From assembly GCF_028994805.1 (NCBI RefSeq), contig NZ_JAJQQP010000004.1:248001-312000 (forward strand): DNA of 64,000 nucleotides, given 5' to 3'. Every line of letters starts with the position of its first letter. The first letter of the stretch is position 1. This DNA comes from Promicromonospora iranensis (GTDB taxonomy: Bacteria > Actinomycetota > Actinomycetes > Actinomycetales > Cellulomonadaceae). Both the position numbers and the translations under genes were made by a program. Below, piece after piece: positions 2,348 through 47,247 of the stretch. The notes beneath the pieces are model-generated. The model was not told the DNA's origin. It ran no database searches and saw only the letters and a list, made by a program, of their open reading frames with translations.

Positions 2348-7822
<5,475 letters not shown>

Positions 7823-28906: not shown

Positions 28907-30850
28907 TCAGCGGGGCGGGACTACGTGGACCGTCGCCGTGACGGGGCCGTGCTGGGTGGTCCCGTCGACGGTGAACGTACCGGGTTCGGCGGTCGCGCCG
29001 TCGGGCACGTCCTGCCAGGTGACACGGGTGCCGTCGACGTCCCCGTCCGCGGGGGACAGGACATCGACCGTCCGGGGGAGCCGGACACGGCCGTCCACCG
29101 CGGTGACGACCCGCACGGAGTCCTCCAGGACGGCGCGCACGTCGCTGTCGCGGTAGACATCGAGTGATGCGTTGGCCTCCGGGAAGGTGCCCGCGCTGGT
29201 CTCCACCCAGGTGAACATGGAGTCCCAGCTCGCGGGCTCCCACGTGAGCACCCCCTGCACCCGGTTGCCGGGCACGTCGTTGGCGATCTGGAAGACCCGC
29301 TGGATCGCGTCGGCCTGGCCCTGCACGGTCACCGGGAACGGCGAGTTGGGGAGCGGTGTCGGGTCGCCGGGCGGCGAGCTCGCCGCCGGATAGGAGGTCT
29401 CGGCGATGTCGAGCGCGTACTCGGGGAACGCGTCGGCGATGGTGTGCAGGTTGTGCTCCAGCGCCTCGGGGCTGCCGTGCCACTCCGGGTAGTAGGACAG
29501 GGCGAGCACGTCGGGAGCGGCGTCGGCCGCTTCGAGCCGCGTGAGCAGCTGCGTCCAGAACTCCATCGTCTTGGAGAGGCGTCCCTTGTCGACGATCGCG
29601 TGGATCTCGACCTCCGACTCCGGGGACGCCTCGCGCACGGCGCGGATGCCGGACGCCATCAGGGTGCCGAACCGGTCCCACTGCTCGGTGTAGAGCTGCT
29701 GCTCGGCGGGGTCCTCGCTCTGCCAGTACTTCCAGAGCAGGCCGCCGCCCGGCTGCGACTGGTAGACGTCGGCCTCGTCGGTGAAGTAGGGCGGCGCGGT
29801 GGTGCCGATGATCTCGGCCTCGCTGCCGTACAGGAAGCCGTTGATCACCTCGTTGCCCACCGCCACCTTGGCGGGGGTGGCGCCCTGCTCCACCAGCTCG
29901 GTCAGGTAGTCCGCGGTGGAGTCGTGGACCTCTTGGTTCAGCTCGTCGAAGGGCAGCTCCGCCCAGGCACGCGGCTTGGGCTGCTTGCTCGGGTCGGCCC
30001 AGCTGTCCGCGTAGTGGAAGTCGATGCCGAGGCTCATGTCGCGGTCGACGATCTCGCGGGCCACGGTGAGCGAACGCTCCGGTCCCTGGTAGGCCGGTTC
30101 GGTCTCGACGCCGGTGGCCTCGCTGCGCGGGTCGTTCCAGATGCGCAGGCGCAGGTGCTCCATCCCGCGGTCCCTGACGACGTCGAGCAGGTGCGGGCCC
30201 GGGTCTGGCGCGCCCGCCAGGGCCGCCTCGGCGTCCAGGTAGTACGGCTGGTCACGCTCCTGATCGGCGTAGGACAGGTCGGCGCCGAGCTTCAGGTCGT
30301 CACGCAGGTAGTTGTAGGCATGCAGCTCGGCGACGCCGTTCGTGCCCGGACGTGCGGCAGGGAAGCGGACGCGCAGGTATTGGATGCCCTCCCGGTCGAC
30401 CAGCGCGGTGGTGCCGGCCGCGCCGCTGCGGCCGTCCCTGTGGTCGGCGAGGGACGCCCAGCGCCTGCCGTCGGCGGAGGCCTCGACGACGTAGCGTGCG
30501 GGCGTCGCGTCCGCGAGCACCACCTCGACCTTGCGCAGTCCGTCGTACGCGCCGCCGAGGTCGACGGTGAGGGCCTGGTCCGGCTTGCCGTGGCGGCTGC
30601 CCGACGTCGGCGCGGCCGGCCGCCAGGCGGTGCCCTCGTCACCGTCGAGCGCCAGGCCGGCGTCGGCATCGTTGCTGGTGGCACGGGCTGTGACCCAGTC
30701 CTTGCCGGCCAGGTCGGTCTCGACGGGCTCGATCACCGCCTCGCCGTAGCCCGCCGCTGACGGTCCGAGCGCGAGTCCGGCCGTCGTCAGCGCGACGACC
30801 AGTGCGGTGCCGCCCGCAAGGGCGCGCCTGCGATGCGTGCTGTGCGTCAT
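28907..30850 (-). CDS. Secreted arabinogalactan endo-beta-1,4-galactanase, GH53
   Basis: A 647-residue secreted enzyme. Order: signal peptide (RRRALAGGTALVVALTTAGLALG, ending near residue 35); a discoidin/F5-8-type carbohydrate-binding domain (about 45-185, WVTARATSNDADAGLALDGD); GH53 barrel (about 195-560) with acid/base E334 in VGNEVINGF and nucleophile E484 in DIAETSYPA; a C-terminal Ig-like (Big_4) domain. It cuts beta-1,4-galactan side chains of pectin outside the cell. ATG 30850 has a good GGAAG site; ATG codons upstream lack the signal peptide. It is first of a GH53-GH42-galK gene row. Confidence 0.94.
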   Translation of the reverse strand: MTHSTHRRRALAGGTALVVALTTAGLALGPSAAGYGEAVIEPVETDLAGKDWVTARATSNDADAGLALDGDEGTAWRPAAPTSGSRHGKPDQALTVDLGGAYDGLRKVEVVLADATPARYVVEASADGRRWASLADHRDGRSGAAGTTALVDREGIQYLRVRFPAARPGTNGVAELHAYNYLRDDLKLGADLSYADQERDQPYYLDAEAALAGAPDPGPHLLDVVRDRGMEHLRLRIWNDPRSEATGVETEPAYQGPERSLTVAREIVDRDMSLGIDFHYADSWADPSKQPKPRAWAELPFDELNQEVHDSTADYLTELVEQGATPAKVAVGNEVINGFLYGSEAEIIGTTAPPYFTDEADVYQSQPGGGLLWKYWQSEDPAEQQLYTEQWDRFGTLMASGIRAVREASPESEVEIHAIVDKGRLSKTMEFWTQLLTRLEAADAAPDVLALSYYPEWHGSPEALEHNLHTIADAFPEYALDIAETSYPAASSPPGDPTPLPNSPFPVTVQGQADAIQRVFQIANDVPGNRVQGVLTWEPASWDSMFTWVETSAGTFPEANASLDVYRDSDVRAVLEDSVRVVTAVDGRVRLPRTVDVLSPADGDVDGTRVTWQDVPDGATAEPGTFTVDGTTQHGPVTATVHVVPPR

Positions 30851-31638
30851 GAGGACTTCCTTGTCCATGTCGGGAGCGTTCGTCCGGGTGCCGGGACAAC
30901 GCCATGTCCTCTCCGCCGGGCGGGGAATGTGCTTCCCGGCATCGAGGCAGGACATTGTGCCCGCTGGATTGTATCGATTTACTGGCTGTTCTGGACAGGG
31001 CGGCGGGACCGGCTGTCGTCCTCGGCGGGAGACGTCGGAGCGGCCGGGAGATCGGTCCGGTGGTGCGGTGGGCTGGGCTGGGGCGGCTGGGGCGGCTGGG
31101 GTGCTGGGGTGCTGGGGTGCTGTGCGGCTGTGAGATCGGTCGGTTGGTGCGGTGCGCCCCGCGAGATCGGTCCTTTGGTGCGGCGCGGCCGCGAGATCGG
31201 TCCGTTGCTTTGAGATCGGTCGGTTGAACGACCGATCTCAAAGCAACCGACCGATCTCAGTAGTGCCGCTCGTGCAAGGGACCGATCTCGCCAGTGCGCC
31301 TGGTGCAGGGGACCGATCTCGGCAGTACCGCTGGTGCAAGGGACCGATCTCAGTGGGGGCTGCCGATACAGGGGACCGATCTCGGTGGTGCCGCTGATGC
31401 GGGGGACCGATCTCGGCGGAGCCATCGCAACCGACCGGTCCCGCCAGCGCCGCTGAGCCACCCATCCGCTCTCGAGCACGTGGCCCAGCGACCGCAGGGT
31501 GAGGGCAACGGTGCAGACGGGCCCGCCCGGCCACCCAGCCCGGCCACCCCGCCCGCCCAGCCCCGCTACGCCACCCGGAGATTCGCCGCCAGCAGATTCT
31601 CATGGCCCTCGCCGCGTCCATGCGGTTCGGTGGGGACC
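30851..31638. other. 788 bp divergent intergenic region with repeat array
   Basis: This gap separates the galactanase (minus) from the epimerase-like gene (plus). An AT-rich patch at about 30966-30985 (GTATCGATTTAC, ATCGAT core) is the likely promoter/operator zone of the galactanase. 31048-31414 holds the 12-copy GAGATCGGTC/GACCGATCTC array. 31070-31130 is a low-complexity GGGGCTG-type stretch. 31440-31638 shows nothing I can name. Open frames across the array encode repeated RDRS- and GTDL-like peptides and look spurious. Confidence 0.6.
31048..31414. repeat. Mirror-symmetric array of 12 GAGATCGGTC / GACCGATCTC units with ~31 bp period
   Basis: GAGATCGGTC occurs at 31048, 31132, 31163, 31193 and 31212; the complement GACCGATCTC at 31230, 31249, 31280, 31311, 31342, 31374 and 31405. 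Spacing is 30-32 bp on both sides and 19 bp next to the centre. The centre is a perfect 19-nt-arm hairpin (31204-31222 / 31229-31247, loop GTTGAA). Units on the right share GTGCAAGGGACCGATCTC with variable tails. Any left unit can pair with any right unit. Confidence 0.85.
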
Positions 31639-32628
31639 ATGCGAATCCTGGTACTCGGTGGAACGGTCTTCCTGTCCCGCGCGGTCGCGGCGGCGGTGGT
31701 GTCCCGCGGGCACGACGTCACGTGCGCGGCGCGCGGTGTGAGCGGCACGGTGCCCGACGGCGCCACGCTCGTCCCCTGGGACCGCGCCGACGTGGTGCCG
31801 GCGGAGCTCGTCGGCGCCACGTTCGACGCCGTCGTCGACGTCTCGCGCATCCCGTCCCACGTGCGCCGCGCGGTCGAGGCGTTCCCGGACGCCCACTGGA
31901 CGTTCGTGTCCACCATCAACGTCTACGCGGACACGGCCACGCCGGGCGGCACACCCGCGACGCTGCCCCTGCTGGACCCGGTGGAGACCGACGAGGACCC
32001 GGACTCCGGCCCGGAGACGTACGGCGCCATGAAGGTGGCCTGCGAGAACCTGGTCCGCTCCGGTGCCGCGGCGGCTCTCGTGATCCGGCCGGGGCTGATC
32101 GTCGGCCCGGGCGACCCGAGCGGGCGGTTCGCCTACTGGCCGTCCCGGTTCGCGCAGGCAGCACGGGACGGCCTGCCGGTGCTGGTCCCGGAGCCGACGG
32201 ACACCCCGGTCCAGCTCGTCGACGTCCGCGACCTCGCGGAGTGGGTCGTGACGGCTGCGGAGGCGGGGACCACGGGAGACTTCGACGCCGTCTGCCCGCC
32301 CCTGCCCCGGTCGGAGCTGCTCGCCCAGGTGGCCGACGGCGCCGGGGCGAACCCGGAGCTCGTCCCGCTGGCCCCCGAGGTGCTCGCCGAGCACGAGGTG
32401 GTCCCGTGGTCAGGGCCCCGGTCGATCCCCTTCTGGGCCGCCGACCTGGTCGATGCCGGCTTCATGGCGCACGACGTCACGTCGTCGCTGGAAGCGGGCC
32501 TGACGATCCGGCCGCTCGCCGAGACCACCCGGGACACGCTCGCGTGGCTCGACGCGACGCCCGACGCGAAGATCACGGGCCTGACCCGAACCGAGGAGCA
32601 GCAGGTCCTGGCAGCCGCCCGAGCCTGA
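31639..32628 (+). CDS. NAD-dependent epimerase/dehydratase-like (extended SDR) protein
   Basis: A 329-residue Rossmann-fold protein. The nucleotide loop MRILVLGGTVFLSRAVAAAV is at the start (GGTxFLxR variant typical of actinobacterial reductases), FVSTINVYAD and YGAMKVACENLV carry the catalytic Ser and Tyr-x-x-x-Lys. ATG 31639 begins the fold; the frame upstream runs through the repeat array and is not protein-like. It may be an isoflavone-reductase or sugar-epimerase relative; substrate unknown. Alone on its strand, ended by a long bidirectional hairpin. Confidence 0.85.
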   Translation: MRILVLGGTVFLSRAVAAAVVSRGHDVTCAARGVSGTVPDGATLVPWDRADVVPAELVGATFDAVVDVSRIPSHVRRAVEAFPDAHWTFVSTINVYADTATPGGTPATLPLLDPVETDEDPDSGPETYGAMKVACENLVRSGAAAALVIRPGLIVGPGDPSGRFAYWPSRFAQAARDGLPVLVPEPTDTPVQLVDVRDLAEWVVTAAEAGTTGDFDAVCPPLPRSELLAQVADGAGANPELVPLAPEVLAEHEVVPWSGPRSIPFWAADLVDAGFMAHDVTSSLEAGLTIRPLAETTRDTLAWLDATPDAKITGLTRTEEQQVLAAARA

Positions 32629-43249: not shown

Positions 43250-44161
43250 ATGAGCATGTCTCGCCCGGGTGCTGTCCCGAAGGTCCCGACCCTGCCGGCA
43301 GGCGACGAGGTCGCCGCGTACTCCACCTACCTGGAGGCGCAGAAAGCAGTCGACTACCTCTCCGACAACAAGTTCCCCGTCGAGAACGTCACCATCGTGG
43401 GCACCGACCTGCGCATGGTCGAGCGCGTCACGGGGCGCCTCACGTACGGCCGGGTGGCGCTCGCGGGCGCACTCTCCGGCGCATGGTTCGGTTTCTTCGT
43501 GGGGTTGTTGATCACGCTGTTCGCCGGCGAGGCGGGCTTCCAGGTGATGTTCGCCGGTATCGCGCTCGGTGCCGGCTTCGGTCTGCTGTTCTCCGTGCTG
43601 TCGTACGCGTTCACGGGCGGGCGGCGTGACTTCACGTCCTCGTCGCAGATCGTGGCCGCGACCTACGCGATCCTCTGTGGCCACGACCATGCGAGCGACG
43701 CACGGGCGCTCCTGATGCGCTCGCCCAGCGGCCTGGGCAAGTCGCGGGGCAACGCCACCGTGGGGGTTCCGGCTCCCGCGGCGTCGCCGTCGCCCACGGC
43801 TCAGGCGCCCGGCGCCGAGCCCGCGCAGCCCGCGCCGACGCCGACGCGCCCGACCGACCCGCGCTGGGTCACGCCGACGGGTGAGCCCCGGTACGGTGCG
43901 ATGCGGCCTGGTGCTGGTGCGCCGGCCGAGACGCCGCCGGGTGCGCCTTCTGGGGCGCCTTCTGCGCCGACGGACGCGCCGACGGACGCACCGACGGACG
44001 CACCTGCGGACGCGCAGACCGGCGCACCGACCCCGCCGGACCAGGCAGCGGGCACCCCGGACAACCAGCGCCCCGAGAGCACGGGCAGCCCGGACGACTC
44101 GCCGACGTCGCGCACCCGCTACTCGAACCCGTACGCCCCGCCGAGCGACGACCAGAAGTAG
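43250..44161 (+). CDS. General-stress-type (GSP17M-like) membrane protein with Pro/Ala-rich tail
   Basis: A 303-residue protein. The N-terminal 55 residues (VAAYSTYLEAQKAVDYLSDNKFPVENVTIVGTDL) match the general stress protein 17M fold, followed by two transmembrane helices (LAGALSGAWFGFFVGLLITLF; MFAGIALGAGFGLLFSVLSY). The last 130 residues are low-complexity, with an APTD-type tandem repeat (about 43970-44015). Ribosome site GGGGAG before ATG 43250. A perfect 16-nt palindrome GCTCCCGCGCGGGAGC at 44166-44181 just after the stop is the probable terminator. Role unknown. Confidence 0.82.
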   Translation: MSMSRPGAVPKVPTLPAGDEVAAYSTYLEAQKAVDYLSDNKFPVENVTIVGTDLRMVERVTGRLTYGRVALAGALSGAWFGFFVGLLITLFAGEAGFQVMFAGIALGAGFGLLFSVLSYAFTGGRRDFTSSSQIVAATYAILCGHDHASDARALLMRSPSGLGKSRGNATVGVPAPAASPSPTAQAPGAEPAQPAPTPTRPTDPRWVTPTGEPRYGAMRPGAGAPAETPPGAPSGAPSAPTDAPTDAPTDAPADAQTGAPTPPDQAAGTPDNQRPESTGSPDDSPTSRTRYSNPYAPPSDDQK

Positions 44162-44244: not shown

Positions 44245-44372
44245 CGACTTCGGTCCGTTGCAACGGTGGCACCTATGACTTCGGTCGGTTGCTCTGAGAT
44301 CGGTCAATCAAACGACCGATCTCAGAGCAACCGACCGAAGTCAGTTTCTGTGCCGTGCAAGGGACCGAAGCG
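44245..44372. repeat. Nested palindromic repeat, left copy (30-nt perfect inner arms)
   Basis: Inner arms 44276-44305 and 44314-44343 are perfectly complementary over 30 nt around an 8-nt AATCAAAC loop. An outer pair, CGACTTCGGTCCGTTGC (from 44245) and TGCCGTGCAAGGGACCGAAG (44351-44370), is imperfectly complementary. The unit repeats, nearly unchanged and in the same orientation, at 45544-45671. It ends 4 bp from the stop of the DUF559-like gene. Confidence 0.88.
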
Positions 44373-44376
44373 GGGG

Positions 44377-45357
44377 TCAGATGGCGGGCAGTCGTGGATC
44401 GATCCGGGCCTTCCGCAGTACGTCTGGCGGGATGTGCGCGGTGATTCGGTCGAGCATCGCCTGGACATCCTGCTTGTCGGACGCGCTGACATTTTCGAGG
44501 CTGACGCCGGCTCGCCGGATGGCGTCGGCACGAGCCTTCTCGGCCAGATACTCCTGCGCCGGGTCGTGACCGGGGCGAACGCCGTCCGGCCGATACTTGA
44601 CCTGACCGTCGAACTCGATGCCCAGCGCCCACTGTTCGTAGCCCAGATCCGTGTGGAAGCGCCCGGCGTCGGTCTCCACCGGCATCTGCGTGGTTGGCCG
44701 AGGCAGACCGGCACGGAGCAGCTCATAGCGGACCCAGGTCTCCCAGGCGGACTGAGGGCCCGAGTCAGCGAGCTCGATCACCAGCCGGGCCCGTTGGGTC
44801 CCGCGCCGGCCGGTCTGGGCGTCGAGCGTCGCGAGCAGCTCTTCCCGTTCGGCACCCAGGCCCAGGGCTGAGTCGGCGATGACGAGCGCCTCGAGCGGGT
44901 GCAACGTCCGCGCGCAGTCGACGACCGTGCGTGCGAGCGATGTCACCGGTAGGCCTGCGGCCTCGACGATGTCGTCGGGCACGAGGGTCCACGTGTACCG
45001 CCGCACGTCACCGGCGGCGTGGCCGGAGGCGCGGTAGCGCTGGTAGACGTGTGTTTCCCGCGGCGTCGTCCAGACGAGGCAGCCCAGGAGCAGCGCGGCC
45101 GACGCATGGCTGAACACGTGCTTGGCTCTGAGCTGGGAGTGCAGCGCGCGGGCGCGGGCGAGTGCCTTCTTGCGCGCTTCTCGCGCAGCTCTCGAAGGAC
45201 CATCGACGTGGATCTCGTCCGGAGCGCAGTACGCACCGCGTCGAACCCTGAGGACTTCGCCGGTGCGAGCACCGGCGGCCAGCTTGTTGCGGTTGTGCTC
45301 GAGCGCGAGGGCAACCGTCGGGATCTTCACTTCGACCATGGAACGACGTTGCGTCAT
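44377..45357 (-). CDS. DUF559 / AbiEi-antitoxin-domain-like protein
   Basis: A 326-residue protein common in actinobacteria. The N-terminal part (GEVLRVRRGAYC) is like the AbiEi winged-helix antitoxin; the middle has FSHASAALLLGCLVW and TSLARTVVDCARTL; the C-terminal third (SAWETWVRYELLRAGLP, GRFHTDLGYEQWALGIEFDGQVKY) is like the DUF559/Vsr-type nuclease fold with an E-x(n)-D-x-E/D-type pattern. A DNA-linked role is possible, but no partner toxin lies next to it. ATG 45357 or ATG 45339 could start it. It is enclosed by the two direct copies of the nested palindrome and by lower-GC flanks than its neighbours. Confidence 0.7.
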   Translation of the reverse strand: MTQRRSMVEVKIPTVALALEHNRNKLAAGARTGEVLRVRRGAYCAPDEIHVDGPSRAAREARKKALARARALHSQLRAKHVFSHASAALLLGCLVWTTPRETHVYQRYRASGHAAGDVRRYTWTLVPDDIVEAAGLPVTSLARTVVDCARTLHPLEALVIADSALGLGAEREELLATLDAQTGRRGTQRARLVIELADSGPQSAWETWVRYELLRAGLPRPTTQMPVETDAGRFHTDLGYEQWALGIEFDGQVKYRPDGVRPGHDPAQEYLAEKARADAIRRAGVSLENVSASDKQDVQAMLDRITAHIPPDVLRKARIDPRLPAI

Positions 45358-45696
45358 CGCACGAGGGTCCGGTACCTGGTCCAGACGCAGCTGTGCACAG
45401 GTCGCGGATCCACAGGGCCGTGGTCGTGCTCGGACCGATGGGGCGCCCCGCCGTGGGGCTCCATGTGGGCGACGATCATGCGGCCGTCCGACCGGCTCGG
45501 CCCAGATGATGTGTGGCGGCGGGGCGCGGCGGGGCGGGGCGGGCGACTTCGGTCCGTTGCACGGCGGCCCCTATGACTTCGGTCGGTTGCTTTGAGATCG
45601 GTCAATCAAACGACCGATCTCAGAGCAACCGACCGAAGTCAGTGTCCGAGCCGTGCAACGGACCGAACTCAGCGCCGCGAAGCCCAGCCGCCGAGC
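45358..45696. other. 339 bp gap between DUF559-like gene and aminopeptidase, holding the right palindrome
   Basis: 45358-45543 upstream of the DUF559-like gene shows no clear promoter or gene; 45520-45543 is a GGGGCGCGGC-type low-complexity stretch. 45544-45671 is the right copy of the nested palindrome. The last 25 bp lead into the aminopeptidase stop. Confidence 0.6.
45544..45671. repeat. Nested palindromic repeat, right copy
   Basis: Inner arms 45574-45603 and 45612-45641 are complementary over 30 nt with one T:G position (a wobble pair in RNA), loop AATCAAAC as in the left copy. Outer arms CGACTTCGGTCCGTTGCACGGC (from 45544) and GCCGTGCAACGGACCGAA (45650-45667) are better matched than in the left copy. 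It stands in direct orientation 1299 bp from the left copy. Confidence 0.88.
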
Positions 45697-47247
45697 TCAG
45701 CGCAGCGACGCCATCCAGGCCTCGACGTCCTCCGGACGGCGGGGCAGAGCCGCCGAGAGGTTCTCGTTGCCGTCCTCGGTGATCAGCACGTCGTCCTCGA
45801 TGCGCACGCCGATGCCGCGGAACTCCTCCGGCACGGCGAGGTCGTCCGCCTTGAAGTAGAGGCCCGGCTCGATGGTGAACACCATGCCCGGCTCCAGGAC
45901 GCCGTCGAGGTAGAGCTCGCGGCGGGCCTGTGCGCAGTCGTGCACGTCGAGGCCCAGGTGGTGCGAGGTGCCGTGCACCATCCAGCGGCGGTGCTGCTGG
46001 CCGTTCTCGTCGAGCGCGTCGGCGGCGGTGACGCCGTCGGGCAGGAAGCCCCACTCCTCGAGGCGGGCCGCGATGACCTCCATGGCGGCCGCGTGGACGT
46101 CGCGGAACCTGGCGCCCGGCTTGGCGACGGCGAACGCGGCGTCGGCCGCGTCGAGCACCGCCTGGTAGATCGTGCGCTGTACGTCGGTGTACTCACCGTC
46201 GACGGGCAGGGAGCGGGTGATGTCCGCGGTGTAGAGCGAGTCGACCTCGACGCCGCCGTCGAGCAGCAGCACGTCGCCGGAGCGGATCTCGCCGTCGTTC
46301 CGGATCCAGTGCAGCGTGGTGGCGTGCTCGCCCGAGGCCGCGATGGTCTCATAGCCCACCGCGTTGCCCTCGAGCCGCGCATGGCCGTCGAAGGTGGTCT
46401 CCACGACACGCTCGCCGCGGCGGTGCTCCTTCGCGGCGGGCAGCGCCCGGACGACGGCCTCGAAGCCCTCGATGGTGCGGGCCACCGCCTCGCGCATCTG
46501 CTCGATCTCGTGCTCGTCCTTGATGAGCCGCAGCTCGGAGGTCGCCTCGACGAGCTTCTCGTCGGTGAGCGCGTCCTCGTCCTCGCCGGCCTCCAGGCGC
46601 AGCTCCTCGACGAGCGACTCGATGGCGTCGTCCGCTCCGGTCACCACGAGGAGGTGCACGCCGCCCTCGCCCACGTCCTTCGCCAGGGCGTCGCCCAGCT
46701 CGTCGATGTGGCGGGCCTCGATGCCGGTGAGGGCCTCGACGTCCGCCAGCGACGGGCGGGCGCCGACCCAGAACTCGCCGTAGCGGGCGTCGGCGTAGAA
46801 CTCCTCGTTGTCACGCGGCGCGAGGGGGCGCACGTACAGCACGGCGTGGTGACCGCTGGCGGCGCCGTCCGGGCCGGGGTCGCCGGCGCCGTCCTCGACG
46901 GGGTGCAGCACCAGGACGGCGTCCGGCTCGCGGTCGGTGCCCAGGCCGGTGAGGTGCGCGAACGCCGAGTGCGGCCGGAACCGGTAGTCGGTGTCGTTGG
47001 AGCGGGTCTTGAGCGAGCCCGCCGGGATCACCAGGCGCACACCCGGCAGCCGCTCGGAGAGGGCGGCCCGTCGGGCGACGGTGTACTGCGCGGCGGGTGA
47101 CGCCGTGAGGCCGAGCTCGGCCCGTGGGGCCCACTGCGACATCACGAAGTTCTTGAAGGCGGTGGAGCCGGGGCGGTGTGAACGGTTGGACCCGCGATCG
47201 GCGGTTCCCTGCTCGTCAGGCTGCGAAGTGGTGGTGGGCTCGCTCAT
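45697..47247 (-). CDS. pepP: Xaa-Pro aminopeptidase
   Basis: A 516-residue metallopeptidase of the M24 (pita-bread) family that removes an N-terminal residue before proline. The two-metal ligands are visible: LLLDGGVEVDSLYTADITRS (two Asp), the His in VHGTSHHLGLDVHD, FTIEPGLYF (Glu) and RIEDDVLI (Glu). The N-terminal 170 residues form the aminopeptidase-P-type N domain. It is intracellular, with no signal peptide. The start ATG 47247 lies 12 bp from the end of the hydrolase gene on the same strand. Confidence 0.95.
   Translation of the reverse strand: MSEPTTTSQPDEQGTADRGSNRSHRPGSTAFKNFVMSQWAPRAELGLTASPAAQYTVARRAALSERLPGVRLVIPAGSLKTRSNDTDYRFRPHSAFAHLTGLGTDREPDAVLVLHPVEDGAGDPGPDGAASGHHAVLYVRPLAPRDNEEFYADARYGEFWVGARPSLADVEALTGIEARHIDELGDALAKDVGEGGVHLLVVTGADDAIESLVEELRLEAGEDEDALTDEKLVEATSELRLIKDEHEIEQMREAVARTIEGFEAVVRALPAAKEHRRGERVVETTFDGHARLEGNAVGYETIAASGEHATTLHWIRNDGEIRSGDVLLLDGGVEVDSLYTADITRSLPVDGEYTDVQRTIYQAVLDAADAAFAVAKPGARFRDVHAAAMEVIAARLEEWGFLPDGVTAADALDENGQQHRRWMVHGTSHHLGLDVHDCAQARRELYLDGVLEPGMVFTIEPGLYFKADDLAVPEEFRGIGVRIEDDVLITEDGNENLSAALPRRPEDVEAWMASLR

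Follow-up and report, generated by a model that had tools for sequence, protein, structure and literature searches.

The gene for a 326-aa protein in Promicromonospora and the palindromes that enclose it probably form a two-part system, in which a vertically inherited chromosomal gene for an AbiEi/Vsr-like protein is accompanied by dispersed palindromes that are recognised as cognate. Homologues of the gene in many genera of a family of soil actinobacteria lie beside palindromes of their own, which share a fixed geometry, differ in sequence from lineage to lineage and, in each genome tested, also occur dispersed. The starting point was one window (C26:248001-312000), i. e., the whole stretch of 64,000 nucleotides that was analysed, whose relevant features are collected in Table 1.

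Table 1. Palindromic elements and genes at and around the unit (window positions)
Feature	Position	Strand	Remarks
Palindromic element, third copy of the family	31193..31258	.	core arms; no family gene adjoining
Gene for YflT-domain protein	43250..44161	+	flanking, syntenic neighbour, outside the unit
Palindromic element, left copy	44245..44372	.	downstream of gene; 30-nt inner arms, 8-nt loop AATCAAAC, outer half-arms
Gene for 326-aa protein	44377..45357	-	AbiEi-like part, about residues 13-198; Vsr/I-Bth0305I-like nuclease domain, 203-314
Palindromic element, right copy	45544..45671	.	upstream of gene; direct orientation relative to left copy
Gene for aminopeptidase P	45697..47247	-	flanking, syntenic neighbour, outside the unit

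The palindromic pair and the enclosed gene

An earlier note on this DNA, made from the letters alone, had described two near-identical nested palindromes of 128 bp in direct orientation around a single gene, with 30-nt inner arms, a common loop and outer half-arms, and this architecture is present throughout. The left element ends 4 bp from the gene's stop, in agreement with that note, and the right one lies 186 bp upstream of the gene start. Both have the loop AATCAAAC and the outer half-arms GACTTCGGTCCGTTGC in common, the right copy being 93 % identical to the left across 107 nt; the inner arms are 100 % complementary in the left copy and carry one mismatch in the right. Single-strand folding of the elements yields about -100 kcal/mol (z -14 to -17 versus dinucleotide shuffles), and none of 200 shuffles folded as well. 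An RNA hairpin is not the best reading of these structures: an Rfam search with the palindrome gave no family above the gathering score (sub-threshold hairpin matches were mostly to microRNA precursor families), and G-U and A-C combinations in the arms, at 30 vs 26, show no asymmetry. In the neighbouring YflT-domain gene, 12-bp tandem repeats GCGCCGACGGAC were seen within the coding region (43952-44031).

The name DUF559/AbiEi-like that the protein had been given stands in its AbiEi half, as indicated by PADLOC (1.8e-11), weak Pfam matches and the predicted structure, whereas DUF559 was not matched by Pfam. Among 24 family members, Pfam detected AbiEi_4 in 11, AbiEi_1 in six and REase_MTES_1575 in one, and a PDB sequence search with the family profile returned nothing meaningful. 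An AlphaFold2 model derived from a 78-sequence alignment (pLDDT 93, pTM 0.91) matches the AbiEi antitoxin (6y8q, Z 11.2) and Rv2827c over residues 13-198; residues 203-314 match the catalytic domain of I-Bth0305I (3r3p; Z 10.8, 97/97 residues, rmsd 3.0) and also Vsr (Z 9.3). The model supports an AbiEi-like DNA-binding part fused to a Vsr/I-Bth0305I-like nuclease domain, with catalysis predicted from the fold, and five residues of this domain (E206, D237, E248, D250, and K254) are invariant in the alignment. The nuclease-like fold proposed earlier is thereby supported, an invariant acidic core being an additional finding, and so is the statement that the protein has no HUH motif, the two folds being those of AbiEi and Vsr/I-Bth0305I and the Y1/HUH transposase profile PF01797 finding no match in the entire host genome. 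The family gene is under purifying selection (dN/dS 0.10-0.15).

Association and geometry across the family

In the homologue collection, 94 of 121 genomes contained a match at E<=1e-20, and a second collection contributed 80 named loci. Palindrome-flanked homologues occur in Promicromonospora, Isoptericola, Cellulosimicrobium, Cellulomonas, and relatives, in at least a dozen genera altogether. By a strict criterion (palindromes within 700 bp), the genes of 131 distinct proteins have palindromes on both sides at 33 loci, on one side at 28, and on neither at 70, and the palindrome density adjoining the 131 distinct genes is 15-fold that further off (0.527/kb vs 0.035/kb). When 64 of the loci scored as having none were re-examined, the upstream and downstream regions of 25 proved to share elements above the 99th percentile of cross-locus controls; these elements are palindromes as well, built in the same way but weaker. 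Roughly one in three family genes is left with no recognisable palindromes. Palindrome-bearing loci are scattered over the whole protein tree. Outside the family, palindromes are rare, with a pair on both sides at one of 29 loci. A chance association, with the palindrome unlinked to such genes and the gene occurring without it in relatives, had been named in advance as the outcome that would speak against a module; the link proved tight and specific instead, as judged from seven Promicromonospora genomes at the same locus, paralogues with palindromes of their own and the dozen or more genera.

The geometry of the units is constant. The median distance of the upstream palindrome from the gene is 128 bp, and that of the downstream one from the stop is 20 bp. 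Each arm contains a short motif twice in the same direction, at a spacing of exactly 19 nt, and the sequence of this motif differs between lineages. Arm self-similarity reaches 0.79 at a shift of 19 compared with about 0.45 at other shifts; it peaks at 19 only, and this shift is the best one in 57 of 94 palindromes. The paired motif reads GACTTCGGTC-GGTTGCTCT-GAGATCGGTC in the host genome, GAGGTAGAAC-CGAGCGCGC-GAGATAGAAC in Sediminihabitans (L181), and TGTTCGGTGA-TTCGTTGGC-TGATCGGCGA in Puerhibacterium.

Some further observations concern the distribution of the family. Homologues from a distant actinobacterial family (L323 and L324) are flanked, on one side or on both, by a different palindrome, GGTTTTCTCGTGCTCTACCAGG enclosing TCTGCAGC, with no obvious 19-nt design. 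A search for phage carriage of family genes gave no phage match, and a plasmid search gave four distant matches. One genome (G104) contains the gene with both palindromes twice (C1, about 30082-31644 and 3519323-3520883), near opposite contig ends, for which an assembly overlap of about 32 kb is the best explanation, and the case was set aside.

Cognate matching and co-divergence

The two sides of one gene share their motif, which differs from locus to locus. Arms score a median of 24 within a locus vs 6 between loci (protein identity below 55 %), and upstream and downstream arms match in all 33 two-sided loci, every one of which reaches the 95th percentile of between-locus values. Palindrome similarity moreover tracks protein identity (Mantel r 0.65, 0/2000 permutations). 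When six palindromes were queried against their own six genomes (other than the host), the matches listed were cognate ones only, and the number of copies in a genome ranged from about 4 to about 25. That gene and palindrome change in step from one lineage to the next points to a selfish or domesticated repeat system of a kind not yet described, built on an enzyme other than the known one.

Dispersed copies in the host genome and its relatives

A BLAST search with the left element, all of whose matches in its own genome are palindromes, revealed about 24 dispersed copies, fragments aside, in the 5.84-Mb Promicromonospora genome. With genes predicted by a simple finder based on codon positions, 12 of the 24 copies fall between tandem, seven between convergent and four between divergent genes, and one is intragenic; the copy at L014 1535-1602 (G000:C1, about 435000), within a predicted open coding region, is possibly translated inside a protein. 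The palindrome family is found in 11 of 12 other Promicromonospora genomes and is absent from the genomes of other families of the order that were searched for comparison.

Comparison of 11 dispersed sites with P. iranensis and others showed that copies have been gained or lost between genomes, with blurred junctions and no clean, exactly bounded empty site for any copy among these 11 sites. Several absences look like deletions that left a motif behind (C2b in G012, C1a in G008, and the second locus described below in G000). Beside some palindromes, outer motifs form tandem arrays of about 29-30 bp (L090 5440-5590, L091 7060-7170), for example, repeated GGACCGAAGTCAGCTGAACGCGCCAAGCAGA. An unrelated palindrome, GTGTCAGACCCACAGGTCACC, recurs with variants in Promicromonospora genomes (L092 11319-11362, L093 11275-11316, L209 1215-1258, and L219 255-302), including G006, which is free of family A; possibly it represents a terminator or a further family of repeats.

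Alleles of the unit in Promicromonospora

In seven Promicromonospora genomes, the gene lies between the YflT-domain and aminopeptidase P (PepP) genes with palindromes around it, one of the two being imperfect in G005, and in four of the seven (G003, G005, G010, and G011) its orientation is reversed. Among the gene-less alleles, the interval is essentially empty in G006, with GTAGGTCAG between the convergent stops, G002 and G008 each have a single palindrome there, and the palindrome of G004 is decayed. Such inverted, empty and solo-palindrome alleles are those expected if the flanking copies recombine with each other, so that the gene is either turned round or lost. A second locus contains, in P. 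iranensis, a palindrome followed by the last 100 bp or so of the gene (86 % identical), in G008 a palindrome and a shorter gene remnant, and in the host genome (G000) a motif and a gene remnant alone; there is nothing at this place in G001, G003, G006, and G010. The unit, or part of it, must therefore once have sat at a second place.

Family-A palindromes also occur in four genomes in which no cognate gene was detected (G002, G004, G008, and G009), where they are no less complementary (arm pairing 0.90-0.94 vs 0.92-0.96 in genomes with the gene). The palindromes are thus kept up with no visible need of the gene, which counts against strict dependence; this could be explained if the gene was lost only recently, if a paralogue stands in for it or if the host itself provides the process. 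Paralogous Promicromonospora genes are flanked by palindromes of other sequences. A second family gene of the host, split by a frameshift, is accompanied by a different palindrome family, GTGGTCGGCA...GGTGATCGGCA (L103, G000:C23:299500-312000, 5647-7507).

How the palindromes evolve

In 69 distinct family-A copies, the arms covary at positions that are free in sequence (z 5.5-9.5). Position 16, for instance, is found as C-G, A-T, and T-A pairs, and the observed pairing at positions 16 and 17 is 0.81-0.87 vs 0.39-0.43 after shuffling; hardly any covariation is seen at positions 30-31, for which two motif forms are allowed. There is no G-U bias or strand asymmetry of wobble pairs in the arms of these 69 copies.

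Puerhibacterium has at least 17 copies of its palindrome. Their 70-bp consensus, to which they are 89-100 % identical, is self-complementary at 35 of 35 positions, and the copies have sharp ends and unrelated flanks; the intergenic flanks are very GC-rich. Around 17 copies, no excess of flanking direct repeats, i. e., no target-site duplication, was observed. Eight changes are compensated on both sides and 29 differences are one-sided. This indicates recent spread of a 70-bp unit together with a process that preserves arm complementarity, be it selection on structure or templated copying. Of two loci compared with a sister genome, L425 has its palindrome there as well, beside 2.4 kb of extra DNA, and L430 was not found.

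Proposed mechanism and rival explanations

We infer that the protein binds, cuts and copies the palindromes and that it is the agent of their dispersal. The AbiEi-like part would read the paired arm motif (GA[CT/GA]TCGGTC in the host, present twice at a 19-nt spacing); in their own promoters, AbiEi and Rv2827c bind to paired inverted repeats of about 23 bp (PMC7319586), and paired-motif recognition by the 326-aa protein is therefore plausible. The nuclease domain would nick or cut at the palindrome, probably while this is extruded as a hairpin or cruciform. Subsequent repair would insert further copies of the palindrome elsewhere and restore one arm with the other as template. The gene would persist because the flanking palindromes belong to it, and recombination between them may invert or delete it. 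Of the two options raised in the earlier note, namely movement or maintenance of the palindromes by the protein on the one hand and regulation by the structures on the other, we favour the former because of the dispersal and the cognate specificity. The suggestion of a REPtron-like module of a different type, with a protein lacking HUH, gains support from the dispersed copies, the specific link to the gene and the lack of a Y1/HUH match in the genome. To extend this to a full non-HUH counterpart of REPtrons, whose fusion enzyme would disperse its own palindromes by cutting and hairpin-templated repair, with lock-and-key co-evolution throughout the family, is a proposition for which we see the chances as evenly balanced.

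A rival explanation is regulation, in which an AbiEi-type autoregulator would use the flanking palindromes as operators and the dispersed copies would represent binding sites of a regulon or nucleoid sites, with no mobility involved. The AbiEi fold of the protein, the promoter binding of its structural relatives and the promoter distance of the upstream palindromes (median 128 bp) all fit, but the downstream palindromes so close behind the stop (median 20 bp) do not, and merely four of 24 dispersed copies lie between divergent genes, compared with seven convergent ones and one inside a gene. Covariation at free positions and near-identical, sharp-ended copies in Puerhibacterium are likewise not expected of operators, and the nuclease core is left unexplained; we consider this reading unlikely.

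The close resemblance of the nuclease domain to the homing endonuclease I-Bth0305I brings a homing-type drive into play, in which the nuclease would cut unoccupied or palindrome-free alleles, gene and palindromes or the palindrome alone would be copied in, and the palindromes would be by-products of one-sided copying. Both the allelic series at one locus, from empty (G006) through solo palindrome (G002, G008) to gene with two palindromes (seven genomes), and the gene end adjoining a palindrome at the second locus can be read in this way. Such a drive is nonetheless improbable given that no recognition site is definable at empty sites, that the dispersed palindromes lie at unrelated sites and that the gene has a stable, syntenic place in the genus, unlike an active homing gene. 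A third rival, which we regard as very unlikely, sees in the palindromes MITE- or REP-like elements that an unlinked enzyme of another kind moves, with the gene hitch-hiking or protecting the cell from palindrome-induced breaks: no Y1/HUH transposase is detectable in the host genome, the target duplications typical of DDE transposases are absent from the Puerhibacterium copies, and the co-divergence and lineage-exclusive pairing of gene and palindrome would need a separate explanation, even though family-A palindromes stay intact in genomes without the cognate gene and some family genes have no palindromes.

Comparison with known systems

A cognate pairing of the fusion protein with its own palindromes, which we prefer, comes close to REPtrons (REP/REPIN with RAYT), which likewise combine a chromosomal, locus-stable gene with cognate flanking palindromes that are also dispersed, mostly between genes. 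RAYTs, however, are HUH Y1 transposases that act on single-stranded REPs with a GTAG tag (PMC8266576, PMC3733652), whereas the system described here has an AbiEi-like and Vsr-like protein and units of about 58-128 bp, each arm of which contains two motifs at the 19-nt spacing. Neither a GTAG nor a CGTC tag occurs in the consensus units GACTTCGGTCGGTTGCTCTGAGATCGGTC and GTCTGTTCGG...CCGAACAGAC, the latter from Puerhibacterium. We do not file the system as a REPtron, because both the HUH Y1 enzyme and the GTAG tag are missing. The MITE of a DDE transposon differs by its target-site duplication, which the 17 Puerhibacterium copies do not have.

With type IV AbiE systems, the protein shares the fold of residues 13-198, and the N-terminal domain of AbiEi binds inverted repeats; it differs by the extra C-terminal nuclease domain and by the dispersed palindromes. 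An AbiE toxin-antitoxin pair was rejected, as no gene for an AbiEii (DUF1814) nucleotidyltransferase toxin adjoins and the neighbours encode the YflT-domain protein and aminopeptidase P. The Vsr/EDxHD nucleases (Vsr, I-Bth0305I) and the MTES_1575 and DUF559 families are alike in the fold of residues 203-314, the acidic residues and the lysine; the host gene, in contrast, lies in no intron, intein or mismatch-repair context, and its product is fused to the AbiEi-like part and has a predicted nuclease role.

The open-access literature searched contains no description of a link between palindromic repeats and DUF559/AbiEi proteins; HUH transposases are the only enzymes that it connects with dispersed palindromes of bacteria, and for several palindrome families no partner is known. 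Among these, CGTC-tagged REPs and other orphan palindromic repeats are dispersed, with the HUH partner unknown (PMC3733652); the host palindromes are dispersed likewise but have an identified partner gene and no CGTC tag in their consensus. Compared with the HUH enzymes, the proteins described here would be a second, unrelated family, whose members are numerous in Actinobacteria, appear there as AbiEi-like or DUF559 proteins and have palindromes specific to the lineage as partners. This provides a testable function for a very common hypothetical protein family and dozens of natural protein-DNA specificity pairs with a constant 19-nt geometry, and makes the origin and the upkeep of symmetry of palindromic repeats directly testable.
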